From positions 1-64,000 of the IMG/VR virus record IMGVR_UViG_3300046753_000522: 64,000 nt of DNA. The stretch is one strand, 5' to 3'. This DNA comes from a virus. The notes under the pieces are model-generated. The model searched no databases and was not told where the DNA came from. It saw only the letters and a program-made list of their open reading frames with translations. Position 1 is the first letter of the stretch, and the number at the start of each line of letters is the position of its first letter. The translations under genes were made by a program, and so were the position numbers. Below are positions 10,631 to 38,282 of this stretch, one piece after another.

Positions 10631-12802
10631 TTATGATGAGGTGGCGCAGTATCCATAATCACCAACTGCGCAGTACTGAGTTCCATCCCATACGACTGCC
10701 CTCATAATTCCTTTTTTATCGGAACTACCCGCCACCGCTGCACCCAGACTCGGTTGATTTGTCCAAGTAACTCCATCAGATGAGGTGGCACATAAACCAT
10801 CTCGACCTACTGCTATGAAATGGTTCGCGTCGCTATTCCATATGACTTGCCCCCCAGAATTATAAGATACTGGGGGCGTCTGTCCCCCAGTAAATGGGGG
10901 AGAAACGTCGTTGCCCCATGCTGAAGCAAGACTCGGTTGATTTGTCCAAGTGGTTCCATCTGGTGAGGTGGCACATTCTCCACCTTCACCTACTGTACAG
11001 AATATAGAGAGTTCTGGAGACCATGCAATTGACGTCATAAGGGTCTCCTTCGCGCCTACTGCTGTTTCGAGATTATCATTTCCTGGCGTCCAATTAACTC
11101 CATCAGTAGAAGTTTTGAACTTTTTTTCTCCGATATTGGTCATATCCCAACTGCCCTGAGGTACTTTTCCACCAACTGCGCAGAACATACTACCATTCCA
11201 TGCAACATCGAATAAAACTTGACCATAGGCACTGCCGGACGCCGCAGTCCAAGTGATACCATCGCTTGAATAAGAAATTGCTCCCCCATCACCAACTGAG
11301 ACGAATAGAGAAAGTTCTGGTGCCCATATCACAGAATGTCTGGACGCCTCGGTGACCCCTGGGGGGGAGGCAACTGACGTCCAAGTCACTCCATCAGAGG
11401 AGGTATAGGTGGACCCCCACCATCCTTGCGCGACGAATAGAGAGAGTTCTGGGGAGTATGCCACAGTAATCAGCGGAGTGGAAAGATATTTGTCATTCAG
11501 AGTCCAAGTGACTCCATCGGGTGAGTTGAGGATCATACCCCCTGGCCAATTCTGCTGGTGGAGGTTTTCGCCTCCTCCAACTGCGACGAACTGGGTGCCA
11601 GACCATGCGATTCCCTTTGCGCTGGTTATACCGCTTGACATGGCAATCCCGAGATTATCTTGGAATGTCCATTTCTGTCCAGGTAGGTAATCAGTCCTAA
11701 ACGACCTTTCTTCTGACCACTCAGAGTTCAGACTCGCAGTATGGTGCTTGACTTTAACTGTGTAGTCTTTATTTCCTTCCAGACCAGTGGGTTCCCACGA
11801 TGTCAGGGCAGTGGCGTCTGAGTCGAGAGATGCTGCGACATTTCCAGAAAGGTCCACGATTGCCCAACTCGACGCAGTGTGAGTATCTGTTCCTTCTGCC
11901 ATCTCGAAGTCAGATGATCGGAAAGGTCCATTAGGTGAGATACTGAGTTCACCGTCAGTGGCAGGAGACTCAATAGTAGGTTGTAGAATAGTTGGTACTA
12001 TGTCAGCAGTTACTGTGGTCCAGTCTGCTGAGTCGCCTGCCGCCTTGAAAGTGTATGTGCTTGCAGTATTGTTTGATGAAGCATTTGTGTGACGGAGTTG
12101 TACCTCGTCTCCGGCAATCAGGTTGAAGTTTGGTTTCAGTACTGGATTGACCGAAATTGGTAATCCGCGGAAGTCGCCACCATTTGTAGCATATTGGGCA
12201 TCGCTGGTTGGCGCAGTGGTTGACCCATAAGGGTAAACATAACTGTTTACGCTATGAACAGTCACCACTCTTGATTCTGAAGCACCCCCCACGGGTTGGT
12301 CACTATCAACGGAGTTTTGGAATACAAATGAGGTCTCTTTCGCAATGGTGAGTTCGAAGGATTGGGATCCACCGAGACCATCACTTACAGTACCAGTAAT
12401 TGTTGTACCGTGTGGACCGTCGATACCGTTATTAGATCCAGGTTCGCCTGCCCACTTGGTCCAGATTTCGGTGTCGTTGTCAGTGGTCTCAATTTTATCA
12501 GTGAAGTTGTATCCATCATCCGAAATCACTAAAGGATAAGAGGCAGTAAGAATTCGACCACCAGCACCTTTCCATTCCACTGGTCCTGCTGGTTGAGTGT
12601 TTGTGGGTTCAGAAAGGATCGTTCCACCTTCCAATGGTCTGATTTCTATTTCGCCAATAAGAGGGATTACTTCTCCATCAGCATCTTTGGTGTACAAGAT
12701 CCGGTCAGGAAAGTTGATCGCCAGTTCACCAACAGCAATTTGGGTATCGTCTGGTTTGTTGCCAGCAATACTGGATCGTTTATGTTGTATAGTTTTAGAC
12801 AT
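10631..12802 (-). CDS. Fibre protein with FN3-like domain and seven-bladed propeller
   Basis: The protein has 723 residues. The first ~250 residues are nearly identical in pattern to the neighbouring protein at 12842-15754 (opening MSKTIQHKRSS, then NKPDDTQIAVGELAINFPDR). This opening resembles the attachment heads of phage fibre proteins. Residues ~270-375 look FN3-like, ending with NSEWSEERSFRT. From about residue 375 to the end there are seven repeats of 35-60 residues, each closing on an 'SxDGxTW' Asp-box-like motif, as expected for one seven-bladed beta-propeller. I infer a receptor-binding or decoration role at the virion surface. No catalytic sialidase residues could be assigned, so binding rather than cleavage is more likely. 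Confidence 0.85.
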   Translation of the reverse strand: MSKTIQHKRSSIAGNKPDDTQIAVGELAINFPDRILYTKDADGEVIPLIGEIEIRPLEGGTILSEPTNTQPAGPVEWKGAGGRILTASYPLVISDDGYNFTDKIETTDNDTEIWTKWAGEPGSNNGIDGPHGTTITGTVSDGLGGSQSFELTIAKETSFVFQNSVDSDQPVGGASESRVVTVHSVNSYVYPYGSTTAPTSDAQYATNGGDFRGLPISVNPVLKPNFNLIAGDEVQLRHTNASSNNTASTYTFKAAGDSADWTTVTADIVPTILQPTIESPATDGELSISPNGPFRSSDFEMAEGTDTHTASSWAIVDLSGNVAASLDSDATALTSWEPTGLEGNKDYTVKVKHHTASLNSEWSEERSFRTDYLPGQKWTFQDNLGIAMSSGITSAKGIAWSGTQFVAVGGGENLHQQNWPGGMILNSPDGVTWTLNDKYLSTPLITVAYSPELSLFVAQGWWGSTYTSSDGVTWTSVASPPGVTEASRHSVIWAPELSLFVSVGDGGAISYSSDGITWTAASGSAYGQVLFDVAWNGSMFCAVGGKVPQGSWDMTNIGEKKFKTSTDGVNWTPGNDNLETAVGAKETLMTSIAWSPELSIFCTVGEGGECATSPDGTTWTNQPSLASAWGNDVSPPFTGGQTPPVSYNSGGQVIWNSDANHFIAVGRDGLCATSSDGVTWTNQPSLGAAVAGSSDKKGIMRAVVWDGTQYCAVGDYGYCATSS

Positions 12803-12815
12803 TTGTCAATTCCTC

Positions 12816-12829
12816 AGAATATGTATTCT
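12816..12829. repeat. Palindromic leader element, copy 1
   Basis: AGAATATGTATTCT is a palindrome with a 2-base centre, placed immediately upstream of the ribosome site of the gene at 10631-12802. The same element with the same flanks occurs at 15768-15781 before the paralogous gene. It may be a regulatory hairpin, or simply part of the duplicated segment. Confidence 0.6.
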
Positions 12830-12841
12830 GTTTGTATTTGT

Positions 12842-13740
12842 TTATGGTGATGTGGCACATTTGCCTTCATAACCAACTACACACAACTGAGTGCCAGACC
12901 ATGTGATTGATTCCATCCTTTCACCTCCCACCGCTGCATTGAGACTCGGTTGTTCGGTCCAAGTAACTCCATCAGGGGATGTGGCACATTTGCCATCACC
13001 ACCAACTGCACAGAATTGAGCGCCAGTCCATATGACTGATTCCATCCTTTCACCTCCCACCGCTGCATTGAGACTCGGTTGAAGTGTCCAAGTGACTCCG
13101 TCAGGGGATGTGGCACATTTACCACCACTACCAACTGCACAGAATTGAGCGCCAGTCCATATGACTGATTTCACCCATGCATCACCCACTGCTGAAGTGA
13201 AACTCGGTTGGTTTGTCCAAGTAACTCCATCTGGGGATGTGGCACATTTACCATCGAGACCGACTGCGACAAACTGTGTGCCGTCCCATGTGACTGAGTA
13301 CATACTTTGACCTCCCACTACTGATGCGAGACTCGGTTGATTTGTCCAAGTAACTCCATCAGGGGATGTGGCACATAGACCGTCATAACCAACTGCGCAG
13401 AACTGAGTTCCAGACCATGTGACTGAGTACATATCGTATGGACTCGCTATTGTAGTGAGACTCGGTTGTGCTGTCCAAGTGACTCCATCAGGTGATGTGG
13501 CACATCTACCTTTCCAACCAACTGCGCAGAACTGACTGCCGTCCCATACGACTGATAACATGAACCCACCGGTCGTTGCTGAATTGAAACTCCGTTGTCT
13601 TGTCCAAGTAACTCCATCAGGAGAGGTGGCACACATACCAGGTCCACCAACTGCGCAGAACTGAGTGCCGTCCCATGTGACTCCGTTCATACTTTTGTTA
13701 CCCACTACTGATGCGAGACTCGGTTGACGTGTCCATTTCT
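12842..13740 (-). repeat. Propeller repeats 8-14 (about 123-129 bp unit)
   Basis: Seven tandem copies of a unit of roughly 41 codons lie here. They are highly similar at DNA level; the phrase 'ggggatgtggcacatttacc' or close variants recur once per unit. Such similarity makes the array prone to recombination and to assembly collapse. Confidence 0.88.
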
Positions 13741-15754
13741 CTCCGATAAGATTCTGAGTCCTAAACGACCTTTCTTCTGACCACTCAGAGTTTAATGTAG
13801 CAGTATGATGCTTGACTCTGATTTTGTAATCTGCATTTCCGTCCAGACCAGTGGGTTCCCAAGAGGTCAGAGCAGAGGTGTCTGAGTCGAGAGATGCTGC
13901 TACTGATTGAGATCCAGTGGCACATGTACCACCTTGCCCAACTGTGCAGAACTGAGTGCCAGACCATATGACAGAGTTCAACTCTGTATAACCCACTGCT
14001 GAATTGAGACTCGGTTGAAGTGTCCAAGTAATTCCGTCTGGAGATGTGACACATTTGCCATCCCAACCACCAACTGCGCAGAACTGACTGCCATCCCATG
14101 CAATTGAGTGCATATATGTTGAATCCACTGCTGTAGTGAAATTCGGTTGGTTTGTCCAAGTGACTCCATCAGGTGATGTGACGCATTTACCATCATAACC
14201 AACTACGCAGAACTGAGTTCCAGACCATATGACTGACCTCATCTGTCTATAACCCACTGATGATTCGAAATCCGATTGATTTGTCCAAGTAACTCCATCA
14301 GGCGATGTGGCACATTTACCATTCATTCCAACTGCACAGAACTGAGTTCCAGACCATGTGACTGAGTTCATCAACGCGTAAGTCACTGCTGGTTTGAAAC
14401 TCGGTTGATTTGTCCAAGTAACTCCATCAGGCGATGTGGCACATCCCTCACCAACTGCACAGAACTGAGTGCCAGACCATGTGACTGAGCGCATACCCTC
14501 AGAGAGACTGCCCCCCAATGCTGATGCGAGACTCGGTTGATTTGTCCAAGTGACTCCATCAGGGGATGTGGCACATTTACCACTCTCACCAACTGCACAG
14601 AACTGAGAACCATTCCATACGACTGATTTCATTACCCCCGATCCTACTGCTGATTTGAGACTCGGTTGATTTGTCCAAGTAACTCCATCTGGGGATGTGG
14701 CACATTTACCATCGAGACCGACTGCGCAGAACTGAGTGCCAGACCATGCGACTGCATTCATATCTTTGTTATCCACTACTGATGCGAGACTCGGTTGATT
14801 TGTCCACACCAGTTCACCCATTATCTCCCAACTGGATGCAGTGTGAGTATCTGTTCCTTCTGCCATTTCGAAGTCTGATGAGACGAATGGTCCATCAGGC
14901 GAGATACTGAGTTCACCGTCAGTAGCAGGTGATGCTATCTTAGGTTGTAGAATAGTTGGTACTATGTCAGCAGTTACTGTGGTCCAGTCTGCTGAGTCAC
15001 CTGCCATGATAAAATTGTAGGTGCTTGCGGTATTGTTTGTTGAGGCATCTTGATGTCGGAGTTGGAATTCATCTCCCTCGGTTATGTAGTCTGTCGCACT
15101 ACCAGCATTTGTTGCTGGCATCGCAGTCCATGAACCACCATTCTTGGCGTACTCAGGAGAGGTGCCAGTGGTCGTTCCGGAGGGATAGACATAACTGTTC
15201 ACACTATAGGCAGTTACTACTCTCGATTCTGAAACACCACCGACTGTTTGGTCACTATCAACGAAGTTGTGGAATACAAACGAGGTCTCTTTGTCGATGG
15301 TCAACTCAAATGATTGAGATCCACCGATATCATCGGTCACACTACCGCTAATGACTGTACCATGTGGACCGTCGATACCATCACCAGATCCAGGTTCGCC
15401 TGCCCACTTCGTCCAAATTTCGGTATCGTTATTAGTGGTCTCAATTTTATCAGTGAAGTTATATCCATCATCTGAAATTGTCATAGGATAAAAGGCAGTG
15501 AGTAATACGCCACCAGAACCTTTCCATTCCACTGGTCCTGCAGGGTGAGTGTTTATGGGTTCAGAAAGGATCGTTCCACCTTCCAACGGAAGGTCTTCTG
15601 TTTCTCTAATAAGAGGAATTACTTCTCCGTCAGCAGTTTTGGTGTACAAGGTCCGATCAGGAAAGTTTATTGCCAATTCGCCAACAGCAATTTGGGTATC
15701 GTCTGGTTTGTTTCCTGCTACACTTGAGCGTTTGTGCTGTATAGTCTTCGACAT
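12842..15754 (-). CDS. Fibre protein with two seven-bladed propellers
   Basis: The 970-residue protein is a paralogue of the protein at 10631-12802, sharing the N-terminal ~250 residues and the FN3-like segment. I count fourteen repeats of about 41 residues, with consensus WTNQPSL-x-SAVG-x-MxSVxWSGTQFCAVGxxGKCATSPDGVT. Seven lie at residues ~315-610 and seven at ~662-970. Two groups of seven fit two seven-bladed beta-propellers. The first group interrupts the FN3-like domain: HTASSW lies before it and SVAASLDSD after it, two segments close together in the paralogue. Nearly every blade carries two Cys (QFC...GKC), 27 in the repeats by my count, which is unusual. A surface binding role is inferred. 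Confidence 0.87.
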   Translation of the reverse strand: MSKTIQHKRSSVAGNKPDDTQIAVGELAINFPDRTLYTKTADGEVIPLIRETEDLPLEGGTILSEPINTHPAGPVEWKGSGGVLLTAFYPMTISDDGYNFTDKIETTNNDTEIWTKWAGEPGSGDGIDGPHGTVISGSVTDDIGGSQSFELTIDKETSFVFHNFVDSDQTVGGVSESRVVTAYSVNSYVYPSGTTTGTSPEYAKNGGSWTAMPATNAGSATDYITEGDEFQLRHQDASTNNTASTYNFIMAGDSADWTTVTADIVPTILQPKIASPATDGELSISPDGPFVSSDFEMAEGTDTHTASSWEIMGELVWTNQPSLASVVDNKDMNAVAWSGTQFCAVGLDGKCATSPDGVTWTNQPSLKSAVGSGVMKSVVWNGSQFCAVGESGKCATSPDGVTWTNQPSLASALGGSLSEGMRSVTWSGTQFCAVGEGCATSPDGVTWTNQPSFKPAVTYALMNSVTWSGTQFCAVGMNGKCATSPDGVTWTNQSDFESSVGYRQMRSVIWSGTQFCVVGYDGKCVTSPDGVTWTNQPNFTTAVDSTYMHSIAWDGSQFCAVGGWDGKCVTSPDGITWTLQPSLNSAVGYTELNSVIWSGTQFCTVGQGGTCATGSQSVAASLDSDTSALTSWEPTGLDGNADYKIRVKHHTATLNSEWSEERSFRTQNLIGEKWTRQPSLASVVGNKSMNGVTWDGTQFCAVGGPGMCATSPDGVTWTRQRSFNSATTGGFMLSVVWDGSQFCAVGWKGRCATSPDGVTWTAQPSLTTIASPYDMYSVTWSGTQFCAVGYDGLCATSPDGVTWTNQPSLASVVGGQSMYSVTWDGTQFVAVGLDGKCATSPDGVTWTNQPSFTSAVGDAWVKSVIWTGAQFCAVGSGGKCATSPDGVTWTLQPSLNAAVGGERMESVIWTGAQFCAVGGDGKCATSPDGVTWTEQPSLNAAVGGERMESITWSGTQLCVVGYEGKCATSP
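13921..14812 (-). repeat. Propeller repeats 1-7, inserted in an FN3-like domain
   Basis: Seven tandem copies of the same unit as at 12842-13740 lie between the two halves of an FN3-like domain that is uninterrupted in the paralogue at 10631-12802. The edges are marked by HTASSWEIMGELVWTNQ on one side and GSQSVAASLDSD on the other. Confidence 0.85.
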
Positions 15755-15767
15755 TTGTCAATTCCTA

Positions 15768-15781
15768 AGAATATGTATTCT
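15768..15781. repeat. Palindromic leader element, copy 2
   Basis: This is an identical copy of the 14-base palindrome at 12816-12829, with matching flanks (ATTCCT on the gene side). It lies just upstream of the ATG at 15754. The shared leader shows that the duplication of the two fibre genes included their translation-start regions. Confidence 0.6.
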
Positions 15782-15793
15782 GGTTTATTATTA

Positions 15794-15817
15794 ATGGACC
15801 ACCATATGGTGGTCCAT
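15794..15817 (-). terminator. Perfect 24-bp palindrome in a fibre-gene gap
   Basis: ATGGACCACCAT is followed directly by its reverse complement. As RNA it would form a stem of about 10 bp with a short ATAT loop. It lies 22 bases past the stop of the gene at 15840. On the minus strand the following bases are TAATAATAAACC, without a T run, so it is a weak terminator candidate, an mRNA-stabilising hairpin or a dimeric protein site. Confidence 0.5.
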
Positions 15818-15839
15818 GTAATGTTGTACTATATGTATA

Positions 15840-18476: not shown

Positions 18477-18556
18477 TGTGAAACTCCTGAGTTCTATTGT
18501 AGTTTTTACTTATCCTGGGTATTGGGTGCGAATTTGGCGCCATACATAATGCCACA

Positions 18557-19399
18557 TTAAGCGTACCCGAAAACAGTTGCAGCGATAGCGCACCTGGGCG
18601 ACGATCCAGCAGTCGTATTTGTTAATGTTATACTTGGATTAGATGCTCCTGTGATTACAGCGAACCTACCTGAACCCAAGGAATTATCGACTCCAGCATA
18701 GGTAGATACTGATCCAGTGCTGGTTGTTATTTGCATGCTCGATGTGGTGCCAAAGTCGGTGTATCCAGCGATGAAGATTATATCATCGGTAGTTGCAGTC
18801 ATCTGAAGGGAGATAGGTGAACCCGAACCCTTTGCTGTGGTCTTTGACTGAAGTGCTGTTGAACCTCTGTTACCATTAACAAGTCTAAACGCAGCAGCAC
18901 CACCACGGAATCCACCCGAGTTAGTGGTTTGTGCGACTGTAAGAGTACTATCCCCTATCAGGTTACCACTTGCTGCGCGACTTCCCACATATACACTGGT
19001 CTGATCCGCAGATGACATCGGCGTGCGGGCATGGTGAGTGCAGTTATTGGAGTTCAAGGTGTAAGTCTGATCGGAGGTACCAGTACCCTCCACTCCACCG
19101 CAGACAACAATGGTGTCGTCGGCGGTTACAGTTGAACCATTCACACTCCCGCTGAAAAATGAAGAGGTGGCGTTGATCACACTACCCAAGTATACGAAAC
19201 TTAAAGGAACTTCCGCTGATGCACCTTGCCACTCATTAAACCCCATCTGAGTGGCATCGCCTTTGCCAATGATTGCTCGTATATCAGCATCATTTATTCC
19301 GCACTGAGTGCCCGTTACGCCGCCTGCTTCAATATGTATCTCATTCAGAGATATCTGACCAGTCGGTAGTGCACTTGTTGTTGCAGAATCGCCACTCAT
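18557..19399 (-). CDS. Putative fibre tip or adhesin-like protein
   Basis: The 280-residue protein opens with GQISLNEIHIEAGGVTGTQC and then GINDADIRAIIG, a start found in small fibre or tip proteins of marine myoviruses. A Gly/Ser/Thr-rich beta domain follows (residues 65-280) with no charged clusters, ending RCAIAATVFGYA. The start codon overlaps the stop of the large S74 fibre gene at 19399, suggesting coupled expression with it. A cap or tip for that fibre is a reasonable guess, not shown by the sequence. Confidence 0.75.
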   Translation of the reverse strand: MSGDSATTSALPTGQISLNEIHIEAGGVTGTQCGINDADIRAIIGKGDATQMGFNEWQGASAEVPLSFVYLGSVINATSSFFSGSVNGSTVTADDTIVVCGGVEGTGTSDQTYTLNSNNCTHHARTPMSSADQTSVYVGSRAASGNLIGDSTLTVAQTTNSGGFRGGAAAFRLVNGNRGSTALQSKTTAKGSGSPISLQMTATTDDIIFIAGYTDFGTTSSMQITTSTGSVSTYAGVDNSLGSGRFAVITGASNPSITLTNTTAGSSPRCAIAATVFGYA

Positions 19400-22300
19400 T
19401 ACTTTTTCAACTCCTCAATCTCTGCGGAGAGTTGTTTGATACTCTCAATCAGAAGTGGCACAAGTCTGGCGTAGTCCACAGTGAGGTATTCTTCACCGGA
19501 CACACTTCCACCCTCGCCGTCATCATCCACTGGGGCGCGATGGATTACCTCTGGCACCACTTCCATTACAGACTGTGCACTCACACCGACTTCTTTCTTG
19601 TCACCCTCGTAACCCAACTCGTGTGCTTTGTCGTTGGGAGTGTAGTAGAAAGTTTCGATTGACTTGACCTTCTCTATTGGGTCTTCGATACTGCCAACCA
19701 CATTCTTGAGTCTCTCATCAGAGTAGTAGGCGACAATATTCGATGTACACCTGAGTTCGGAAGTGAACCTCTTGATACCACCGACATCTTGAGCACCAGA
19801 AGTCTTCACTGCATCGGAACCAGTATACAGCGTTGGTTTACCTGTCAGGTCATCATAAGCACCACTAAAGGTGCTGACAGTGACAGCACCAGTGCTACCA
19901 TTCACACTGGACACATAAGAAGTTGTATCCGCGAGAGCGCCAACATCTGCGGCATCGAGGACAACCGTCCCCGTCTGACCGTTGACAGTGTCAATCGGTG
20001 CGGAGACTATCTCAGATGCATTTGCTAGTCTCACCCAATTTCCTGCATGAGCAAAGTATCCTGCTCCAGTGCCGTGGACGTGAGCAAACATGCCGTGGTT
20101 GTCTGTAGCAGATGGTAGGTCACCCTCCGCAGAGTACACATTGGAGAAGAGAACTTTGTTTCCTCCCATGTCTAGAGTGCTCGATGTGACCGCACTGATT
20201 GCATCTGCTGAATCAAATCCAGTCGGGATACTTATCAGAGCATTTACATATGCTGAGTCGACAACTGTTTCTACACGCTCATCGGTGAAGTACAAGTTGT
20301 TTGACCCTTCATCGATGTTATCTGTTGTCGCATTATTGACAATCAGTGTTGCCCTGACATCTGCTCGAGCATCCGTGTAGTACAGGTTGGTTGAACCTTC
20401 TGCCAGATCATCCGTGCTTGCGATAGAACTACCGTCAACTCCGTCCCTGCCTGCTGCTCCGTCTCTACCTGTTGGACTCTCCAACCAGTAGACTCCATCC
20501 CAGATCCACATGACTGCGTCGCCACTATCGGGTGTCTCTAACCATTGTTGTCCCATGTTAGGGGCAGTGGGCGCGTCCTTATTAATGTAAACGACACCCG
20601 CACTATCAAAGTTGACACGTGCTTGTACATATGCCGAGTCTACGAATGTTTCAACACGAGCATCAGTATAGAAAAGATTGGTTGAACCTTCTGCTAGGTC
20701 ATCTGTAGACTTCTGCGCAAAGTTAGAGTCTACCCTCGCATCCGTGTAATAGAGGTTCGAACCTTCTGCCACTGAATCCGTGGTGAGGTTATCAATCCTC
20801 TGACCAAGGTCAGCATCTTCGCTTGACAACGCTGCGATAGCAGAGTCGACATACTTCTTATGTGGGATGTCGAGGTCGTCGGTAACTCCATAGTCGGCAT
20901 TGTATGTTGCCTTTTGGAAGTTCTTGTTTGCGCCACTAATGATCTGTATTGCTGCGCTGGTGTTTCTCTGTATGGTGAGATTGCTATCACCAACACTGGA
21001 GATCTTATTGGTTCTGATCTTACCCTGATCATACACCTCAATGTTTCCATTATTGACATAGATAGAGTTACCACTATCGAAAATGAGGTTACCAGTCATG
21101 GTGTCGCCCGACTTATTAACCTTATCACTGTCGCTGACACCCGCCGTAATAGCATTCAATGCACTGTCGACGTATTGTTTATTAGTCGCGTGATGATCCA
21201 TATTAGGATACTTCACATGGTATAAACCCAGAGATCCATTGCTTACCGATATGAACACATCATTTGTGTCTGAATCGGCGATCTTGAATTCTTCTTTCAC
21301 CATGTTGCGTTTCGATTTGTGCAGTAATTCGTTGGTCTCAGTTTCAAGATCGCCCAACTTCTGGAACATTGGTTGCAGATTCTGTTCTGTTGCGACTAAC
21401 TCATCGTCGAAGTAGAGTCCAACTTGATGCTTATCCCATACGAGTCTCTGGAAACTACCGTCATCAACACTAAGGAGGAACGAATTGTCGAGAGGGGAGA
21501 ATGCTGCGCCCCACATTGAACTTTTAAATTGCCTATTGACAAGGGTCCAGTTGATGCCATCCTTTGACACCATTATCTTGGAACTTCCACTGGATTCCCG
21601 ACTACCTGCTACCCAAAGTCCGTTACCATATGCCACAGATACCCAACGTTTTTCGGATGCTGCAGATGCCGCAGTCCAGTTGATACCATCGGTCGAGTAC
21701 ATGACTCGGTTTGTGCCATCAGATGATACTGCTACGAACTTTCCGTCGCCGTATGTTATACCGAACCATTGATTTTCTTCTACTCCCGCTGTTGCCGTGT
21801 TCCAGTTTACACCATCGGTAGAGTAGATGACAAAACCATTATTGGTTGGGAAATCATCGTATGCTACTGCTACAAAAGTGCCATTGCCATATGCAATGTC
21901 TTGGAACTCTGCTGCCAGTGCATTGTGGTTGTTCCAATTGATACCGTCTGTCGAGGTAGAAACTTGATATGTGCCTCTACTCGTTACTGCTACAAACTTG
22001 CCATCACCGTATGTGACTGCTGAGTATCCACCGTAGTCGTTTCCGTCACCTGGAGCATAACCTGTTGCTTCCTGCCATGTTTCTGCGTTGTCTGTTGAAT
22101 AGAGAATCTTGTTTGTGAAACTGTAGATTACTGTTACCCAAGTTCCGTTACCATCTGTTGCGACATCATAGTATCCGCTTTTCTCATGGGCAGTGGTTGC
22201 AGTGGTCCAATTAATTCCGTCATCGGAGTAGATGATACCTTCGAAGTCGTCATTCTTTGAAATGGATACTGCTACCCATCTACCATTAGCATATTCAACT

Positions 22301-28979: not shown

Positions 28980-29171
28980 TTAAGTGTCGTTGTTGGTTAC
29001 TTCTTTTGACCGCGTTGCCTTGGTCTTTTCATTCCCTTTCAAGTATTTATCCACTTGATCAGGATGTACATTGTCGACAACGAAGGGAACCTCTTCAACC
29101 GAACCGTCTTTACGACTGACCGTGGCAACGCCTCGAAGTTTACCAAATTTGTCTTTTGATTGTACAACCAT
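28980..29171 (-). CDS. Small basic protein of unknown function
   Basis: The protein has 63 residues, with a Lys-rich C-terminus (KYLKGNEKTKATRSKE). No family was recognised. The gene looks real because a GAGGAG ribosome site lies at good distance from the ATG and the gaps to its neighbours are short. The spacer between ribosome site and ATG is exactly TATAAATA, the late promoter core. A transcript started there would begin inside this gene. Confidence 0.65.
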   Translation of the reverse strand: MVVQSKDKFGKLRGVATVSRKDGSVEEVPFVVDNVHPDQVDKYLKGNEKTKATRSKEVTNNDT

Positions 29172-29179
29172 TATTTATA
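29172..29179 (-). promoter_or_regulatory. TATAAATA between ribosome site and ATG
   Basis: An exact late promoter core abuts the ATG at 29171 and lies inside the translation-initiation region. If active it could serve only the downstream genes (28964 onward), because its transcript would lack the start codon of the 63-residue gene. Confidence 0.45.
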
Positions 29180-29205
29180 CTCCTCAAATCTTTAAAATAA
29201 ATCCA

Positions 29206-29583
29206 TCATGCAATTCTTGGTGTTCCTGATCCTGTGCCACGCGGCGAACGACTTACCAGAAGATTACCTTCTAAAACTCGCTCCACGATCTCAGAATCAG
29301 AATCACCTTTTACCAATTCAACATCATATATGTATCGCCTACGAACGAGACCTTCGGTTTCATTCGGTGATAGACTGATATCTATAATACCTTTCGACGG
29401 GGGTGCATCGATATTTGTAAGGAAGTAAGTTGCCTCGGAACTGTCTGCGTATTGAGAACGATTGATTGTTCCCCTCACTCGGAAGTCACTGAGGTCACGG
29501 ATACTTCCGTCGGGTGACAGTAATTGTAGTCTGTATCTGACGGATGCTCCCTGATCGACAGATAGGTCTTCATAATGCGCCAT
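29206..29583 (-). CDS. Beta-sandwich virion protein, possibly BppU-like fold
   Basis: The 125-residue protein carries the pattern DQGASVRYRLQLLSPDG, then DFRVRGTINRSQYADS, ISLSPNET and RYIYDVELVKGDSD with a final VLEGNLLVS. This is the arrangement of a small Ig-like beta-sandwich that I associate with phage structural proteins linking fibres to baseplates or tails. The name is an inference from pattern. A TATAAATA late promoter lies 31 bases upstream. The gene follows the giant repeat protein. Confidence 0.75.
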   Translation of the reverse strand: MAHYEDLSVDQGASVRYRLQLLSPDGSIRDLSDFRVRGTINRSQYADSSEATYFLTNIDAPPSKGIIDISLSPNETEGLVRRRYIYDVELVKGDSDSEIVERVLEGNLLVSRSPRGTGSGTPRIA

Positions 29584-29613
29584 AAGATTTCTCTACGCAG
29601 TTTAATTTGTATG

Positions 29614-29621
29614 TATTTATA
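29614..29621 (-). promoter_or_regulatory. Late promoter TATAAATA after the giant gene
   Basis: An exact core lies in the 44-base gap between the stop of the 2884-residue gene and the start at 29583, leaving a leader of about 25 bases. This is the expected geometry for a T4-type late promoter. Confidence 0.8.
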
Positions 29622-29627
29622 CTGGTT

Positions 29628-32600
29628 TTATGCGGCAGTGCGAACTAGAATTGTTCGAACTTCTTCTTCCATTATTCGTAATGTAGAAGATGGCGGGATG
29701 TCTTGCTGCTCGCCCAGAGTCTGGTAGATTGTACACTCAACTTTCGAGTCGCTACACTGAAGCGCAGCATCAACATCGATCTCACGTTCAGCGTTACCAA
29801 CAACTCGCGAGTCGCCTGACTGAACTGCCTGACCCAGACCGTCATTATTAAGTATACGCTCAGCAACACCAACGACAGTAGAAGGTTGCGCCTGTAGAGC
29901 ATGAGTAGCGCCATTGTCTTCAACCGTGCGTTTAGCAACACCAACAACCGTGGAGGGTTGCGCCTGCGGAGAAGCATCGAGAGCATTACTTGTTCTCTCT
30001 ACGACTGCAGTTACATGCGCGTCTTGTGCTTTCGGAGAGGCATCAATGTCATTGCTTGTACGTTCTACAACCGCAGTTACATGCGAGGGACCAGACTTGA
30101 GACGTATGGGTCGCTGCAGAGGTACAATAATGTTTTCACTGGTGCCGAATACCTGCGAATCAGAACACTTCAGTGCTGCTTCGATTGGGAGGCGACTTAT
30201 CTTACCATTGCCCTCAACGAGCGAGTCAGTGGTTGTGAGGGCAGTGATGACCTCGTCAGGTTCTTCAGTGACGATTCTCTCAGCAACACCAGTGACGATG
30301 TGATACTCTGTGGGTCGTAGGTTTGCACCACCCTGATCATCGGAGACGCGATCCATGTCACCGACAACGATCGAGTCAGAGGCAACCAGAACACCAGCAC
30401 CTGTGATGATTCTTTCAGCAATACCCTCGACGATGCAGTCAGATGCGACGAGAGGATGAGTCCTACCGCCATCCTTGACTGTTCTCTTGACGACAGCAGT
30501 AACGGTGGAGGGACCAGACTCAACTGATTGGCCAAGACCGTCATTGTTGAGCGTTCTCTCGCCAAGACCAACAACGCGCGAGTCACCTGACTGCACCGCC
30601 TGACCCAATCCGTCGTTGTTAAGGAGTCGCTCGGCGACACCAGTGACGATGTGGTATTCAGTCGGACGCAGGGCAGCAGACGTTCTAATCTCGCGTTCAG
30701 CATCGCAGACGACCTGACTATCAGAGGCAACCAGTACGCCAGCGCCGACGATCGTTCTTTCGGCAACGCCAGTGACGATAGAGTCACTAACTGTGAGTTC
30801 GTGTATCGTGCCGTTGTCTTCAACTGTTCTCTCTGCAAGACCAACAACCTTGGAATCGTCAGAAACGATATGATTAAATCCTGGAAGCAGAGTAATGCTA
30901 CGCTCAGCAAGACCAGTAACGATTGAATCTGTTAATACAAGAGCATTTATAAAGTCATCTGGATGCTCTTCAATAATACGTTCCGCGAGACCAGTGACCT
31001 TCGAATCTCCAGATACAGGATCATCACCCTGATCATCTGGATGCTCTTCAATAATACGCTCAGCAAGACCAGTAACAATCGAATCTGTAACGGTGAGCAC
31101 CTGACCCAATCCGTCGTTATTGATGATGCGTTCTGCAACACCGACAACGATGTTAAATTCGGTCGGGCGAAGTGCAATATCTTCTGCTGGTATAATTCTC
31201 TCAGCAACGCCACTAACGATTGAGTCCGTGACGGTGAGGGCATGAGTAGTGCCACCGTCTTCGACTATGCGTTCAGCAACACCTGTGACGATATGCTCAA
31301 TGTTCGGTCGGAATGCAGCATTAAGTTCGTTCTGTTCAATGATGCGCTCAGCAACACCAACGACAATATTATTCTCGGTTGGTTTGAGTGCGTGATTCGC
31401 GAGGTTGTCTTCAACAGTACGTTCAGCAAGACCTGTAACGAGTGAGTCCGTGACCGTGAGAGCATTGGCAAAGTCTTCTGGGAATTCTTTGACCGTTCTC
31501 TCACCGAGACCAGTAACGGTAGAGTTGCCACTGACGAGTCGTTGCTTATCAGTACCGAATCCAGGTTTGCGAATAATTCTTTCAGCAATGCCCGTTACAA
31601 CAGCGTTGCCATCGACAACGAGATCCTGATTAATGTCATTTGTATCAATCGACCTTTCAGCACGTCCGCGTACAATAGCATCGGATGCGACGAGATTATG
31701 CTCAGAGGTATGGTCTTTCGATGTTCGGAAACCAGAACCGACGACGATTGAGTCGGTAGTGACCAACTCCTCGTAGATGTCTTCGATACCGAACGCGAAA
31801 CCTCTGGTGCGCGAGTCGCTACACTTGAGTGCGCCCGATGCCTTGCGGATAAGTTGCGTGACCGAAGTGGTGCGACAGTCAGTCGACTTGATGTTGAACG
31901 ACTGTTGGTCCGGATGTTCTTCAATGACACGTTCCGCACGCCCAACAATGATCGAATCAGAAGCAATTATATCGCCCGTACCATTAATGGTTCTTTCGGC
32001 GACACCCACAACAGTAGATTCGCCGGACTCAATAGATTGCCCAAGTCCATCATTGTTGAGCGCACGTTCCGCTACACCAACGACAACCGATTCTGAAGCA
32101 CGTAGAGCAGCAGTTTGCTCTTGCTGATCAATTACGCGCTCAGCATTACATACAATTACGGCATCAGATGCCTGCAGGTTTGCAGAACTCAGAAGATTAG
32201 AAGTAATCTCTGTGACCGCAGTTACAATAGAATCTGTACACTCAAGAGTTGCATCAATTGGCAGTCTTGATACCTTACCAACGCCAACGACCAGAGAGTC
32301 TGTGGTTACGAGGTCAGCACGTATCTTACGTTCTACAATGCCCTCACCGAATACAATAGAATCAGTGGTAGTGAGTTGCTGACCAAGACCATGGTTATTC
32401 AGTTTACGTTCAGCGACACCGCGAACGATAGAGTCAGATGCGACGAGAGCAAATGATTGCTCGTCTGGATCTTCTGTGATAAGACGTTCAGCGACACCAG
32501 TAACAATAGAGTCAGATGCGACGAGAGCAAACGACTGATCGTCTGGATCTTCTGTGATAAGACGTTCAGCGACACCGACGACTATTGAATCAGACGCCTT

Positions 32601-35600
32601 GATGTTGACGGGCAGATCATTGATCTCAACTATACGTGTACCAACACCATTAACTGTAGAATCAGATGCCTTCAGTATAATTGGTTCTGCCAGAGTCTTG
32701 ATGATATCTGCTGTGCCAGTAACGGTTGAGTTGCCAGAGACGAGAGCATGAGTAGCACCCGCATCATCGATTACTCTATCGCCAACGCCAACAACCAGTA
32801 CATCAGAGGCAACCAGTTTAACGTCACCGACGTTGTGTATCGTTCTCGATACTTCACCAGTAACTGTAGACGGACCAGACTGTAGTGCGTGAGTTACGCC
32901 ATTATCTTCGACGATACGTTTGGCGAGACCAACAACCTTAGAGTCACCAGACTGTATAGTTTCGTACAGATCCTCGATACCAATAGCGATACCGTTGACT
33001 TTCGAGTCACTCGTCTTCAGTGCGGCACTAATCGAATTAATGGTTCTCTCGACGACTGCTGTTACATGAGCATTACCTGCCTTGAGGTTTGCCGAACTTA
33101 GCAGGTTAGAACCGATCTCTACAGTAGCAGATACCGTGGCGTCTTGTGCCTTGACAGGATTGAAACCACCAGTGAGTCGGTCTCTGTACATAGAGACTGT
33201 TTCGATTTCTACTTCTTCTGTCTGAGCATCTCCGAGGATGCCGTAACCACTGTTGACAGCATTGTACAGAGTCTTCGGATCGTATCCTGTTTCGGTGACG
33301 TACCAGTGATTCGCGAAGTGACCATTGCCACTGGTTGCTTCCGAATAGACGACAATGTACCACAGAGAAGCACTAACCTTTCTGTGATAGAAGTTGTAAT
33401 CATTGTCTACTGCTAATGTGTAATCACCATCGCTCTGAGAATCTACAACAAATCCATGCTCAGGCAGAAGTTCGTATGTACCGTTGAACTTGGCGTTCGT
33501 GGTAGTGAATCCGCTCAGTACCAGTTTGCTGCCAGTGTAACTTACTTTGCTATTCGTATTCGACGGTGACAGTGCACTCTCGACTTCGTCGGGTACACGG
33601 ACGACCGTGCGTTCTGCCAGACCAGTGACCTGTGCATCCTGTGCCTTGACTCCAGCACTGCTGAGTATGTTACCGCCTCTTGCTCCCTGCCCTTCGACAG
33701 AGGAGTCTCCAGAAACGATATCGCCAGACCCAACAGATGCCCTTTCTGCGACACCAACGACCGTGGAGGGACTAGAGGCGAGTTCTCCAGTACTGTTTGA
33801 ACCACGGATACCGAGACCTGTGACCTGAGATGGTCCGGACTCTAGAGTTAGTCCTGGATCGCCATCTACGACTCGGTCGCCATTACCAAAGACGACTGCG
33901 TCAGACGCTTTGAGGTTGGAAGAACTGAGAGAGTTGCTCGTAATCTCTACAACTGCCGTTACAGTGGCATCGCCTGACTTGAGTGTGATCGTTTGAGATT
34001 CATAACCTATGAAACCGCGACCAACTACGGCAGCATCACCAGACACCAGTCGATGCGTTCGACCTTCATCATCAACTCCACGATCACCAGCACCTACCAC
34101 TTGCGAGTCGCCAGTTACAAGGTCCGCTGATTGGACTGTGATAACACGTTCGGCACGACCAGTGACTAACGCAACACCGTTACCAAGTTGTTGACCCAAC
34201 CCATAGTGCCAGATAGTTCTTTCCGCGACACCGACTATAGTTGCATCGCCAGATTGTACAGCAGCATCGTCTCCGTCGATCTGACGTTCGGCGATACCAA
34301 ATGCCTCAACGTTGAACGGAGTCATGCGAATATCTACTGCTGTGCGCATTACACGCTCGGCAACACCCACTACAATGGCATCGCTCGCCTGTAGGTCGGT
34401 AGATTCGAGAAGGTTACTTGATAATTCAGTGGTGGCAGTTACACTTGCGGCGCCAGACTTGAGGGCAGCAGATACTGTTCTCTTGACCTGTATGAAGTCA
34501 TCAGAGTAATCGACGTTAGAGGCATGAATTACAAAGTTGTCTGCCTGAAGTTCTACATCAATTCCAGGATAAGATCGACTAACGGTGGCATTTACGTGTG
34601 CGTCTTGTGCCTTCAGAGCAATACGGATTTCAAACTCTTGATCCACGTCAGCATTTACGGTGGCGTCGCCTGCCTTCAATGCCCCCGAAGCAATGATCCT
34701 TCGATAGATCTCAGAAGCATTTACAGTTGAGTCACCTGCCTTGAGTTGTACTGCTGTCCTGTGTTCTCTCTCAGCAACACCGACGACAGTTGAGTCGCCA
34801 ACCTCTAGCGCATGGGTGGCAACGTTGTCATCAACTCCACGAATACCTTCGCCTGTTACTTGTGAGTCACCAGAAACGAGAGTATCCGTGCCATTCACGG
34901 TTCTCTCGGCAACGCCAGTGACGAGGCAATCGGTTGTGGTCAGTCTTTGTGTACCAACGGTATAATGGACAACGTCTGCTACACCAACAACAGTGGCGTC
35001 TTGTGCCTTCAGAGCAATATCATTCGTTACGCGACCAATGTTGGCAAGACCGACAATGGTAGAATCGCCTGACTGTAGTTGTTGTCCGACCGGAGCATTG
35101 TTCAGTAGTCTCTCGCCAAGACCAACAACAGTAGCATCTTGTGCCTTGAGCGCAGGATTACCTGCACCCTTCTCTACTTCACTTAATGCAGTGACGGTAG
35201 ATGGTCCGGACTCAAGAGTGGCAACAATCGGTTTACGGGAAATCTCATAAGTAGCAACTACTTTCGAATCTCCGGAATATACTGCCTGACCTAATCCATC
35301 GTTATTGAGTAATCTTTCTCCATCACCTTCTATAAGTGCAGAAGAAGTTGTCTCGCCAGTTTCAGTATGGTCCTGAGTGTAACCTGTAATCTTGGGTGGA
35401 GTTCCCGAATAGGTAAACCATGGTGTTCTGAGACCTTCCGGCGCACCACCATAGTCAAACGTGGTCTCCCAATTTTGGGGAACTTTGAGTGTTATGATGC
35501 CGACCCACTCATCATTATTTGTATCGTAGATAATGCTCTTGTATCCACCCAACAAGAGGTAACTGATACGACTGGTGAATACAATGTAAGTTGAAGTGGT

Positions 35601-38282
35601 GTCGACTGAAACAGAATTATCTGTTGTGTCGATTGTGTAGTATAGCGGTTGCCTCAGATACTCACCAACAAAGGTTTCTGCTTCGTCCGTATAACCAACG
35701 GCGAATAACTGAATTTCATACGGATATAGAATCTTGGCGTCGTTAGATATATCAGTGTCCCCAAATTGGGGTCTCTTATATGATAGTGATATACCAGATC
35801 CGATACCAGTAACGAGATGAATTGTTCGAGAAGTTGCACCGACTACGGTTGAGTCGCCCGATACCAATGCTCCAGTAGCATCCTGACCTCGGTCGGCACC
35901 ATCTGCACTAACTGATGATTCTCCGGATTGTAGGGCACCAGAACCAAAGACAGATCGTTTGGTTGCGCCAACTACCTGAGAATCATAGCACTGTAGTTCA
36001 ATCGAAGATACTGTTGGTTGACGAGCAGCAACACCAACAACAGTGGAATTTGAAGCAACGAGATCAGCAGAGGTGGTTTCCCTTACAACACTTGATGATC
36101 CTACAACGATAGAGTCTCCGGAAACCAGTGCATGTGTCACGCCACCATCTTCGATAATGCGTTCAGCAACACCTACAACCTGACAGTCAGATGCAATCAA
36201 CTCAACGTCAGTTGACCTGAGTCCTGTCGTTTCTCCGTGCACCTCAGCGTCGCTACATTGAAGTTGACCAGTGCCGTGAATCGTTCTTTCGATGACGGTA
36301 GTGACCTTCGAGTCACTGCATACAAGGACACCCGATCCGGATATCTTTGCTGTTGCTGAACCAGTAACAGTACTATCAGAACAAACGAGAGTACCAGAAC
36401 CATTTATTTCTCTCTCAACAGCACCAACGACAATTGAGTCGCTGCACTTTAAGACAACGGCATCTTCGAACTTCCTGAAGGCAACGCCTATTACTTCGGC
36501 ATCTTGTGCCTCAACAGTTGCGTCGATCGGGTTTCGAGAAATTGAGTATTCAATCTCGACCCGAGATTGTCCTGAGTAAAGTGCTACAGCAGGAAGGAAA
36601 GAAGATGCATCGGCATAAGCAAGATACCCATTAGTACCTGAGACAACCCAATTGGTGCCATTGAAGGCAATTCCTTTAAGATCTCTTTGGTTGGGATCTG
36701 AAGTGTTCTGATATGACCAAGCAGTTCCACCACTCTTTCCGATGAGTATGCTGCCACCTGTACCACCCACTGCCCATGTATTTTTTTCTGCATTGTAATC
36801 AAGACATTGTAGTCTTACAGAGGCGAGGGCATCTTCCTGTACAAGAACGTCAACGGAGGTGCCATTGTCAGTTTTACAGACAGCGCCGTCAGAACCTACG
36901 ATGAGGAAGTGGTCATCACCATATGCAATACCGAATGGGTTGCTTGCTCTGGTTTTTTCAGCACCAACTGTCCATGTAGAACCATTCGAAGAATATGCTG
37001 TGCGGAAGTTTTGCGTGGAAATAACAAACCGATCATCGCCATAGGCGACGTACATCGCTAAAGAGGCATTGAGAGGAATGGTAGGTGACCATTGAGGTGT
37101 ATCGACCAGAGTCCAAGAAGTCAGATCAGAAGTAGATGCAACAAGGACAATACCGAAATTACCAGTAACAACAACCTTGCCCCCACCAACAGCAACAGAG
37201 ACAAGTTTTAGTGTATCACCAAATGATTCTTGGTTTCCATTACCTTTATGTACATCGGCAAGTACGGTGTCAAGGTCGATGCTTGACATTGTTGAGAAGT
37301 TATCAGTGGTTAAGAATAACCTCGCCCCAACTATCGTCCCCTGAGGGGAACGATTTCCTCCACCGACCAAGACGAATGCATTGTTCGATACTTGCGCAAG
37401 TGACTGTACTATAGCGAGAGTATTACTGTTAGCAGAAATACCAGTCGGACGAGAAGTTGTCCAGGTTTCTCCATCGTCGGTCGATCTGAAGATCTGAGGA
37501 AGTTGACTCGCCCCGCCTTGGGTAGCAATAAACTCTCCGGAACTGGTGGCGATCATGTTGTTGATGGCACCGTTGCCGTGTGGTCCTTCAATGCCGTCCA
37601 AATCGATGTCATTGAGGGCGAGACCCTCTTTTCCGGCGACAACCGTTCTCTCGGTGACACCCGTAACCTTGGATGCCTGAGACCTGATTTCACCTTCGAC
37701 GGTGGAAATAGTTCGTTCCGTTGTCCCTACAACTACTGACTCTTGTGCTTGTACAGCAGCAACAATCGGTTTGCGGGTTATCTTGGTTGTGCCAACGACA
37801 ACGCAGTCAGATGCTTTGAGTGTTCCAGTATCACCTGCTGTGGCGAATGCGTCGGTAGTGCTGTCGCTACATTTGAGGGCACCCGAACCAAAGACAGATC
37901 GCTTAGTGGTGCCAACTAGGAGAGAATCGGTAGACTGGAGGGAACCAGATGCAACATGAACAAGGTCAGCAGAACCTGTTACCTCGGAATCAGAGCAAGT
38001 GAGGTCGCCAGCAGCGACTGCCTTATTTTCAGCAACGCCGTTGACAGTAGAATCGCCTGATACGAGTGTACCAGGACCGATGCTCCTAGATCCACCCTTG
38101 CCATGAACAAAGGAGGGACTGCTAAACAGTTGTACTTTAGCGTCTCCTGGACCGTTACGTGCCTCTGCTGAAACAGAAGCATCCTGAGCATCGAGTGTAA
38201 CCCCCAAAATGTGTATGCGTTTAACATACCCGTGGGTTACATATCCGTCTTCAATGTATTCTATCAGTTGGTAAGTTGACAC
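29628..38282 (-). CDS. Giant 2884-residue repeat protein with embedded propeller
   Basis: This is the largest gene in the window. By hand I count about 95 repeats of a unit like ALVASDSIVTGVAER, separated by 8-18 residue linkers; in places they are perfect 26-residue tandems. The pattern (hydrophobic, x, x, Asp-Ser, x, Val, x, Gly, x, Ala, x, Arg) suggests a beta-solenoid or fibre shaft. Three other domains interrupt the array. Residues ~215-565 hold seven Asp-box-type repeats (one reads FRSTDDGETW), a likely seven-bladed propeller. Residues ~830-980 and ~1565-1710 are unique beta-rich inserts. The start is GTG (38282). A long fibre or whisker is inferred from size, repetition and position. 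Confidence 0.85.
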   Translation of the reverse strand: MSTYQLIEYIEDGYVTHGYVKRIHILGVTLDAQDASVSAEARNGPGDAKVQLFSSPSFVHGKGGSRSIGPGTLVSGDSTVNGVAENKAVAAGDLTCSDSEVTGSADLVHVASGSLQSTDSLLVGTTKRSVFGSGALKCSDSTTDAFATAGDTGTLKASDCVVVGTTKITRKPIVAAVQAQESVVVGTTERTISTVEGEIRSQASKVTGVTERTVVAGKEGLALNDIDLDGIEGPHGNGAINNMIATSSGEFIATQGGASQLPQIFRSTDDGETWTTSRPTGISANSNTLAIVQSLAQVSNNAFVLVGGGNRSPQGTIVGARLFLTTDNFSTMSSIDLDTVLADVHKGNGNQESFGDTLKLVSVAVGGGKVVVTGNFGIVLVASTSDLTSWTLVDTPQWSPTIPLNASLAMYVAYGDDRFVISTQNFRTAYSSNGSTWTVGAEKTRASNPFGIAYGDDHFLIVGSDGAVCKTDNGTSVDVLVQEDALASVRLQCLDYNAEKNTWAVGGTGGSILIGKSGGTAWSYQNTSDPNQRDLKGIAFNGTNWVVSGTNGYLAYADASSFLPAVALYSGQSRVEIEYSISRNPIDATVEAQDAEVIGVAFRKFEDAVVLKCSDSIVVGAVEREINGSGTLVCSDSTVTGSATAKISGSGVLVCSDSKVTTVIERTIHGTGQLQCSDAEVHGETTGLRSTDVELIASDCQVVGVAERIIEDGGVTHALVSGDSIVVGSSSVVRETTSADLVASNSTVVGVAARQPTVSSIELQCYDSQVVGATKRSVFGSGALQSGESSVSADGADRGQDATGALVSGDSTVVGATSRTIHLVTGIGSGISLSYKRPQFGDTDISNDAKILYPYEIQLFAVGYTDEAETFVGEYLRQPLYYTIDTTDNSVSVDTTSTYIVFTSRISYLLLGGYKSIIYDTNNDEWVGIITLKVPQNWETTFDYGGAPEGLRTPWFTYSGTPPKITGYTQDHTETGETTSSALIEGDGERLLNNDGLGQAVYSGDSKVVATYEISRKPIVATLESGPSTVTALSEVEKGAGNPALKAQDATVVGLGERLLNNAPVGQQLQSGDSTIVGLANIGRVTNDIALKAQDATVVGVADVVHYTVGTQRLTTTDCLVTGVAERTVNGTDTLVSGDSQVTGEGIRGVDDNVATHALEVGDSTVVGVAEREHRTAVQLKAGDSTVNASEIYRRIIASGALKAGDATVNADVDQEFEIRIALKAQDAHVNATVSRSYPGIDVELQADNFVIHASNVDYSDDFIQVKRTVSAALKSGAASVTATTELSSNLLESTDLQASDAIVVGVAERVMRTAVDIRMTPFNVEAFGIAERQIDGDDAAVQSGDATIVGVAERTIWHYGLGQQLGNGVALVTGRAERVITVQSADLVTGDSQVVGAGDRGVDDEGRTHRLVSGDAAVVGRGFIGYESQTITLKSGDATVTAVVEITSNSLSSSNLKASDAVVFGNGDRVVDGDPGLTLESGPSQVTGLGIRGSNSTGELASSPSTVVGVAERASVGSGDIVSGDSSVEGQGARGGNILSSAGVKAQDAQVTGLAERTVVRVPDEVESALSPSNTNSKVSYTGSKLVLSGFTTTNAKFNGTYELLPEHGFVVDSQSDGDYTLAVDNDYNFYHRKVSASLWYIVVYSEATSGNGHFANHWYVTETGYDPKTLYNAVNSGYGILGDAQTEEVEIETVSMYRDRLTGGFNPVKAQDATVSATVEIGSNLLSSANLKAGNAHVTAVVERTINSISAALKTSDSKVNGIAIGIEDLYETIQSGDSKVVGLAKRIVEDNGVTHALQSGPSTVTGEVSRTIHNVGDVKLVASDVLVVGVGDRVIDDAGATHALVSGNSTVTGTADIIKTLAEPIILKASDSTVNGVGTRIVEINDLPVNIKASDSIVVGVAERLITEDPDDQSFALVASDSIVTGVAERLITEDPDEQSFALVASDSIVRGVAERKLNNHGLGQQLTTTDSIVFGEGIVERKIRADLVTTDSLVVGVGKVSRLPIDATLECTDSIVTAVTEITSNLLSSANLQASDAVIVCNAERVIDQQEQTAALRASESVVVGVAERALNNDGLGQSIESGESTVVGVAERTINGTGDIIASDSIIVGRAERVIEEHPDQQSFNIKSTDCRTTSVTQLIRKASGALKCSDSRTRGFAFGIEDIYEELVTTDSIVVGSGFRTSKDHTSEHNLVASDAIVRGRAERSIDTNDINQDLVVDGNAVVTGIAERIIRKPGFGTDKQRLVSGNSTVTGLGERTVKEFPEDFANALTVTDSLVTGLAERTVEDNLANHALKPTENNIVVGVAERIIEQNELNAAFRPNIEHIVTGVAERIVEDGGTTHALTVTDSIVSGVAERIIPAEDIALRPTEFNIVVGVAERIINNDGLGQVLTVTDSIVTGLAERIIEEHPDDQGDDPVSGDSKVTGLAERIIEEHPDDFINALVLTDSIVTGLAERSITLLPGFNHIVSDDSKVVGLAERTVEDNGTIHELTVSDSIVTGVAERTIVGAGVLVASDSQVVCDAEREIRTSAALRPTEYHIVTGVAERLLNNDGLGQAVQSGDSRVVGLGERTLNNDGLGQSVESGPSTVTAVVKRTVKDGGRTHPLVASDCIVEGIAERIITGAGVLVASDSIVVGDMDRVSDDQGGANLRPTEYHIVTGVAERIVTEEPDEVITALTTTDSLVEGNGKISRLPIEAALKCSDSQVFGTSENIIVPLQRPIRLKSGPSHVTAVVERTSNDIDASPKAQDAHVTAVVERTSNALDASPQAQPSTVVGVAKRTVEDNGATHALQAQPSTVVGVAERILNNDGLGQAVQSGDSRVVGNAEREIDVDAALQCSDSKVECTIYQTLGEQQDIPPSSTLRIMEEEVRTILVRTAA
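32431..32586 (-). repeat. Near-perfect 78-bp tandem repeat
   Basis: Two adjacent 78-base units (26 codons, ALVASDSIVTGVAERLITED and onward) differ at only a few positions. This is the most recent-looking duplication in the giant repeat gene and shows how the array may grow. Confidence 0.85.
36590..37640 (-). repeat. Seven propeller repeats inside the giant protein
   Basis: Seven diverged units are each bounded by motifs such as STDDGETW, SSNGSTW and SGGTAW. They are far less alike than those at 12842-14812, but the count and strand pattern match a closed seven-bladed propeller placed between short-repeat arrays. Confidence 0.72.

Follow-up and report, generated by a model that had tools for sequence, protein, structure and literature searches.

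The 64,000-nucleotide window analysed here (positions 1 to 64,000 of the viral record IMGVR_UViG_3300046753_000522, a record of 101,940 bases) belongs to a marine phage that is, as its genes indicate, T4-like, and it carries four large open reading frames, all on the minus strand (10631-12802, 12842-15754, 19399-24720 and 29628-38282), in which five groups of Asp-box-like repeats are found. The portal, tail tube, terminase, sheath stabiliser, neck and baseplate wedge genes matched T4-like families as expected, and the terminase has its nearest counterpart among named phages in Phage C48C1 (Kyanoviridae), at 70% identity. No tRNA genes were found in the window, and reverse transcriptase, sought as a sign of hypervariation through a reverse-transcribing element, was found neither in the phage's own record (0 of 1) nor in related records (0 of 8), all of which are possibly fragments. 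At 39019-41625 lies an 868-aa open reading frame with DNA repeats of 66 and 69 bases and no PHROG or Pfam match.

The first fibre gene (10631..12802, minus strand) encodes P0001, a protein of 723 aa with a gp37-type N-terminus (residues 3-48 match phrog_1699, E 1.6e-15), an FnIII-like domain and a C-terminal propeller (propeller 1; residues 376-723, 10634..11677, minus strand) that gave seven unit matches, with six unit lengths, taken from W strand to W strand, of 41-61 aa. Its neighbour (12842..15754, minus strand) encodes P0002, a protein of 970 aa that matches phrog_1699 at E 2.3e-15, is 61% identical over residues 3-48 to gp37 of T4-like phages and bears two propellers, namely 2a (residues 315-616, 13907..14812, minus strand) and, at the C-terminal tip, 2b (residues 672-970, 12845..13741, minus strand), each with seven unit matches and seven blades in the structure model. 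The two proteins are adjacent paralogues, 77% identical over their first 313 residues, and the FnIII-like domain of both, recognised by weak Pfam matches only, is in P0002 the site into which propeller 2a is set; once the ring is omitted, one alignment joins its flanks to 105 residues of P0001 at 80% identity. No relatives of these two fibres were found in viral contigs. All 27 cysteines of P0002 lie within its rings, 14 in one and 13 in the other, or almost two to a blade, on strands B and C; the other three rings hold 6, 0 and 2.

The third fibre gene (19399..24720, minus strand) encodes P0003, of 1773 aa, which matches the tail fiber protein family phrog_5481 (E 9.3e-14), matches phrog_1699 over residues 846-1772 (E 1.3e-6) and not N-terminally, and carries a C-terminal Peptidase_S74 chaperone domain (residues 1667-1725, 19543-19722; 29.9 bits against a cut-off of 22) that was not found in P0001, P0002 or P0004. 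Propeller 3 sits in the middle of this fibre (residues 792-1105, 21406..22347, minus strand), with six unit matches and a degenerate seventh. It is 44-46% identical to the propellers of two other viral contigs (L007 and L009) as against 25% to ring 2b and, since it is nearer to other contigs than to fibres 1 and 2, the five propellers are probably of more than one origin. For the stretch after propeller 3 no relatives were found in viral contigs. A further viral contig (L036:3529-4714) is 86% identical to P0003 before the propeller and ends within a few residues of the point where the propeller begins, which looks like an assembly break in a variable region, in this one case only.

The fourth gene (29628..38282, minus strand) encodes the giant repeat protein P0004, of 2884 aa, whose repeats are mostly about 21-26 aa apart and whose propeller 4, the most diverged of the five, lies near the N-terminus (residues 213-575, 36558..37646, minus strand). 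P0004 has no phage family or named-phage match, its propeller has no relatives found in viral contigs, and it shares its gene position with a giant gene of Phage C48C1 (141011-151054) with quite different repeats; in positions 1-14000 and 106500-156191 of the 156191 bases of that phage there is no convincing propeller unit, the best full score being 2.5 bits. A sequence-only reading of this DNA had assigned all the repeat groups to fibre proteins, which family matches bear out for three genes, and P0004 is called a probable fibre from its position and repeats only.

All five groups of that reading, in four genes, were recovered on the minus strand at the positions it had given them, and the units of each group close with an Asp-box-like turn, S.DG.TW, which on reading the four proteins is variably decayed. 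Across the whole record, with E up to 10, a profile of alignment A3 hit five places (10640-11671, 12854-13735, 13901-14806, 21418-22350 and 36606-37640), partly by construction because the window's own propellers are in A3. The reading had also counted 7, 7+7, 7 and 7 units, and a model of the single unit, made with units taken from genes 1 to 3, gives 7 in gene 1, 14 in gene 2 (leaving out one negative-score stretch), 6 in gene 3 and a weak 3 in gene 4, the remainder being supplied by alignment or by eye: four units of gene 4 and the seventh of gene 3, all degenerate, owe their placement to inspection by eye and to alignment A3 with seven-unit relatives. Counts by eye, here and below, are those of a single reader who was not blind. 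The unit model is partly circular, and therefore a second profile was made from other viral contigs only, comprising 11 propellers that had themselves been found with the gene 3 propeller as query, so that its result for gene 3 is not fully independent. With HMMER filters off, this external profile gave whole-ORF E-values of 9.7e-61 for gene 3, 5.1e-44 for gene 2, 6.7e-16 for gene 1 and 2.4e-9 for gene 4, where no decoy out of 244, reversed or shuffled, did better than 0.086 and a forward plus-strand open reading frame (102-479) also scored 0.001; under default filters only genes 3 and 1 were listed. For the gene 4 group, hhalign returned 96.8% probability and a score of 76.5, and 20 shuffles scored at most 19.1.

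Structure prediction was applied to three of the rings. The propeller of P0004, modelled with 11 aligned relatives, reached a mean pLDDT of 71.3 and a pTM of 0.79 with 47 of 363 residues under pLDDT 50, and its strands group as seven blades in a model that may favour seven because its other alignment rows have seven units (by eye). The model of P0002 residues 262-970 contains two seven-bladed rings at a mean pLDDT of 72.1 and a pTM of 0.51 (126 of 709 residues under pLDDT 50), ring 2b being confident, with most 10-residue blocks at pLDDT 84-97, and ring 2a middling, with the FnIII-like halves around it not resolved in the model. Ring 2a has almost no aligned relatives, and its seven blades therefore come mainly from its own sequence; in both P0002 rings the last blade would take its outer strand from a short N-terminal W strand. 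Counting blades on predicted structures was the check that the sequence-only reading had put forward and, when grouped by reading DSSP strand lists, they number seven in each of the three modelled rings, which upholds its closed seven-bladed rings for 2a, 2b and 4 by models, and for propellers 1 and 3 by homology only. The modelled rings are thus predicted to be closed seven-bladed Asp-box propellers of the Ycf48/DUF6242 group, and it is very probable that all five repeat groups are seven-bladed propellers.

This kinship emerges from both structure and profile comparisons. With the P0004 propeller, Foldseek found its best PDB match in Ycf48 (E 1.8e-10) and VIA-align in virginiamycin B lyase (Z 30.2, rmsd 2.3, 276 aligned), which was also the best VIA-align match of the first ring of P0002 (Z 31.6, rmsd 2.4, 283 aligned), the P0002 list concerning mainly that ring. 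Against the PDB, profile A1 matched Ycf48 (2.1e-11), HCF136 (4.3e-7) and a DUF6242 protein (5.4e-5) and, more weakly, sialidases (0.0009-0.005) and 6p2l, a glycosyl hydrolase BNR protein (0.0092); profile A3 matched Ycf48 (4.3e-8) and 6n1a, a chain named carbohydrate-binding protein (2.6e-5). P0002 passes the Pfam cut-off of DUF6242 (57.4 against 29 bits), a family to which P0001, P0003 and P0004 were unmatched, and propeller 4 matched two NCBIfam models, Ycf48 (E 2e-6), far under its cut-off, and the F510_1955 glycosylhydrolase (E 6.2e-8), whose cut-off of 175 bits is far above the 32.2 scored. Ycf48/HCF136 is a seven-bladed propeller, and the sialidase ring is six-bladed, with an arginine triad and acid/nucleophile residues; the rings described here have seven units and seven blades, not the six-bladed ring of a catalytic sialidase.

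Homologous units in related phages, where the sequence-only reading had advised looking, were found in viral contigs as well as in named phages, with a unit model that was iterated over the same loci it then counted, at a threshold of 3 bits. A search of viral contigs with propeller 3 returned 17 loci, of which 14 have seven units over 3 bits, with some near-identical propellers among them, another has six and is cut by the contig end, and another has six by model and seven by eye, with its closing strand at the other end. Three of the propellers are identical (L012, L013 and L014) and a fourth is 98.6% identical to them (L020). The remaining locus, L023:3847-6675, does not enter the counts of seven, for it holds a propeller-like array of a different type in which a unit measures about 55 aa and ten units can be made out by eye, possibly as a pair of five-bladed rings. 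Among the named phages, B23, DSL-LC01 and RAS14 have seven units by model and seven by eye, S-CBWM1 has five by model and seven by eye, XacN1 six by model within the array and seven by eye, Phosso seven by model (one being the closing strand) and seven by eye, and DC31 12 by model and 14 by eye in two rings; for the gp7 proteins, the counts by model and by eye are 7 and 7 in S-CAM9, 6 and 7 in DSL-LC03, and 5 and 7 in S-8S55. The ring can also be present in one protein and absent from the next, as a pair of fibres with gp37-like N-termini (by eye) hints: L009 and L113 are 68% identical before the ring, which L009 possesses, whereas L113 continues there into other sequence, its contig ending soon after the point of divergence.

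The same pattern is far better seen in relatives of a 1060-aa protein of the contig L016, whose gene neighbours match major tail protein, tape measure protein and tail fibre protein, and whose closest counterparts among named phages, hosted by Cellulophaga, are 25% identical over the first 227 residues; this is a siphophage-like family, not that of the window phage. The search gave 73 loci, with 52 complete open reading frames and 21 cut by contig ends. Seven units are present in 35 of the 52 complete proteins and none in 16, the one remaining protein having six by model and seven by eye, so that selection for exactly seven, as the sequence-only reading had argued, is supported here; discounting duplicates, 33 of the 36 proteins with a ring and 12 of the 16 without are distinct. 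The ring-less proteins keep the rest of the protein and, in four aligned pairs, the gap falls at reference residues 253-539 or 257-544, the edges of the ring. Exchange is evident as well: among the 33 distinct ring-bearing proteins there are 30 pairs with flanks at least 97% identical, and in 26 of these the ring falls below the flanks in identity, whereas in 4 it does not. In the extreme pair (L061 and L074), aligned directly, the flanks are 96.9 and 98.4% identical and the ring 43.6%, and in a pair with partial flanks, both contigs being cut (L015 and L019), the flanks are 98-99% and the propeller 63% identical. Between L016 and L017 the flanks are 99% identical in amino acids with dS of 0.25 and 0.38, and the ring is 72% identical with a dS of 1.25, a jump that therefore speaks for replacement by a distant allele and not for point mutation. 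The reusable head of the earlier reading is accordingly supported in this family, where it can be exchanged as a whole ring.

Variation within the ring is unevenly spread. Across the 33 distinct L016-family proteins, the D-A and B-C loops have a mean entropy of 1.62 bits as against 0.61 for the A-B and C-D turns (Mann-Whitney p 2e-11, with related sequences treated as independent), strands A and D have 1.33 and 1.20, and the flanks 0.40 and 0.31. The 14 blades of P0002 follow the same loop trend (p 0.013); nearly all codon differences in their most variable loop columns change the residue, whereas in the Asp-box turn proline and aspartate persist and their codons change synonymously. The textbook blade order places the D-A and B-C loops together on one side of the ring, usually the side that holds the ligand.

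The history of the two P0002 rings can be read in part from their blades, which have a DNA identity of about 75% and fall, in a tree with no support values, into a single clade together with two P0001 blades. Duplication of a whole ring is not supported at the DNA level, where matching blade positions average 75.7% identity: displacing one ring by three blades gives the same figure, and of 5000 permuted orders 3726 do no worse. In protein, the unshifted register leads slightly (67.8% against 63.1-65.7% for shifted ones), so that an old ring duplication within P0002 is conceivable. Blade copy number in P0002 could drift, because its blades are so alike in DNA and its ring positions are not matched beyond chance there. 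Nature thereby puts the closure of the propeller to the test: recombination among blades so alike could yield other counts, yet seven or none is what the complete proteins examined contain.

What might five such rings do for the phage? They are carried by fibre-type proteins at rather different places, on two gp37-type tips, inside an FnIII-like domain, in the middle of an S74 fibre and towards the N-terminal end of a giant repeat protein, and the function best supported for them, which I regard as likely, is that of exchangeable heads for surface ligands. In the proposed mechanism, the framework of the blades would be constant, as would the A-B and C-D turns, the D-A and B-C loops would vary to fit a ligand on the host surface, and whole propellers would be gained, lost and swapped by recombination; the all-or-none presence and whole-unit swapping recorded elsewhere fit such host-gripping heads. 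I infer that binding is by the variable face, that the ligand is probably a host glycan, and that swapping of the L016 type also takes place in the window phage.

Other roles deserve consideration. The rings could instead be enzymes that cut host polysaccharide, whether depolymerases, sialidase-like or other glycosidases, given that Asp-box propellers include sialidases and glycosyl hydrolases and that sialidases, 6p2l and F510_1955 appear among the matches above; however, the better sequence matches in the PDB are Ycf48, an assembly factor, and the DUF6242 protein, and the loops of the presumed top face, the usual site of a pocket, are the most variable part both in the L016 family and in P0002, which leaves catalysis quite unlikely. 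Propellers also occur in the nozzle proteins of T7 and SU10, according to PMC10607447, and in cyanophage gp7, and one may ask whether these rings are structural spacers or assembly domains that bind nothing, as is possible for the gp7 baseplate wedge propellers. This is very unlikely when 16 of the 52 complete L016-family relatives dispense with the ring and keep the remainder, and when the ring is the less conserved part in 26 of the 30 pairs with near-identical flanks.

A weak and general adhesion or decoration, directed at particles or exopolysaccharide and not at a specific choice of host, would be well served by five propellers in one genome and by placement in mid-fibre, both of which suit avidity, and the presence and absence of rings among relatives suits an accessory role; yet loop diversification and the swapping of whole domains look like changes of specificity, and I consider this reading unlikely. 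Scarcely credible is the notion that seven is an accident of recent tandem duplication and closes no ring. The blades of P0002, alike in DNA, of one clade and without matched ring positions beyond chance, would lend themselves to it, but the count returns in rings that have diverged, seven units over 3 bits being present in 14 of 16 viral contigs, and complete relatives show no intermediate counts, bar one with a degenerate unit, so that the unit counts refute it in the main. Exchangeable heads for surface ligands thus remain the reading to build upon, and a wider conjecture can be attached to them, which I offer tentatively as a little less than evenly balanced: that Asp-box seven-bladed rings are a general exchange unit of aquatic phages, acquired, dropped and swapped whole between the tail proteins of unrelated phages, with a fixed framework, an antibody-like variable face and several specificities per virion, five in the window phage. 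If the variable face does bind host glycans, a handful of loop residues on a single stable scaffold could be enough to read the specificity of a phage, and a change of host would show in metagenomes as a natural swap of alleles.

Propellers on phage tails are a known kind, and the novelty implied by the sequence-only reading was too strong, since phiKZ gp131C, the annotated BNR protein of S-CBWM1 and gp7 of three T4-like cyanophages carry propellers too; what is new is five in one phage, a nested ring and all-or-none swapping. A literature search by title and abstract opening, with subscription journals mostly outside its scope, found no paper that describes several Asp-box propellers together in a single T4-like phage, and PMC7156551 and PMC10665884 make no mention of BNR or propeller. 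According to PMC4901313, gp131C of phiKZ (PDB 4GBF) is seven-bladed like the rings here, located at the baseplate periphery and suspected to be a receptor binder or an enzyme; phiKZ is a jumbo phage, unlike the window phage, and the absence of gp131C among the PDB matches listed (Foldseek, VIA-align and profile A3) proves nothing on kinship. Two other phages have related designs, in that the phi11 receptor-binding protein has a propeller, but a five-bladed one, and the K1F endosialidase has a tail propeller, but one that is six-bladed and an enzyme (PMC10607447 for the latter). Outside phages, the eBAP3 fibres of eCIS carry beta-propeller lectins on collagen-like shafts and so resemble the present fibres in using a propeller as the binding head of a contractile tail-derived fibre, whereas they belong to bacterial injection systems, with neither blade number nor Asp-box kinship given in the passages cited (PMC12923769).

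Ycf48/HCF136 (PSII_BNR, PF14870) supplies the best Foldseek and PDB profile match but is a cellular photosystem assembly factor and no virion protein, and the window matches lie under the family cut-offs; as for DUF6242 (PF19755), P0002 is over its cut-off and viral proteins so named match the model. Compared gene by gene, gp7 of the Kyanoviridae S-CAM9, DSL-LC03 and S-8S55 and gp119 of S-CBWM1, a phage with an annotated 'BNR repeat domain protein', share seven units by eye and a virion-type protein with the present fibres, and differ in being a baseplate wedge or a single BNR protein. The gp7-type baseplate wedge proteins of T4-like cyanophages at L031, L032 and L033 have their Asp-box propeller, of seven units by eye, near the C-terminus. 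Finally, in Synechococcus phage B23 (MN695335; L004:7941-8909) the plus-strand open reading frame of the seven-unit propeller is unannotated, and two antisense hypothetical open reading frames are annotated in its place.
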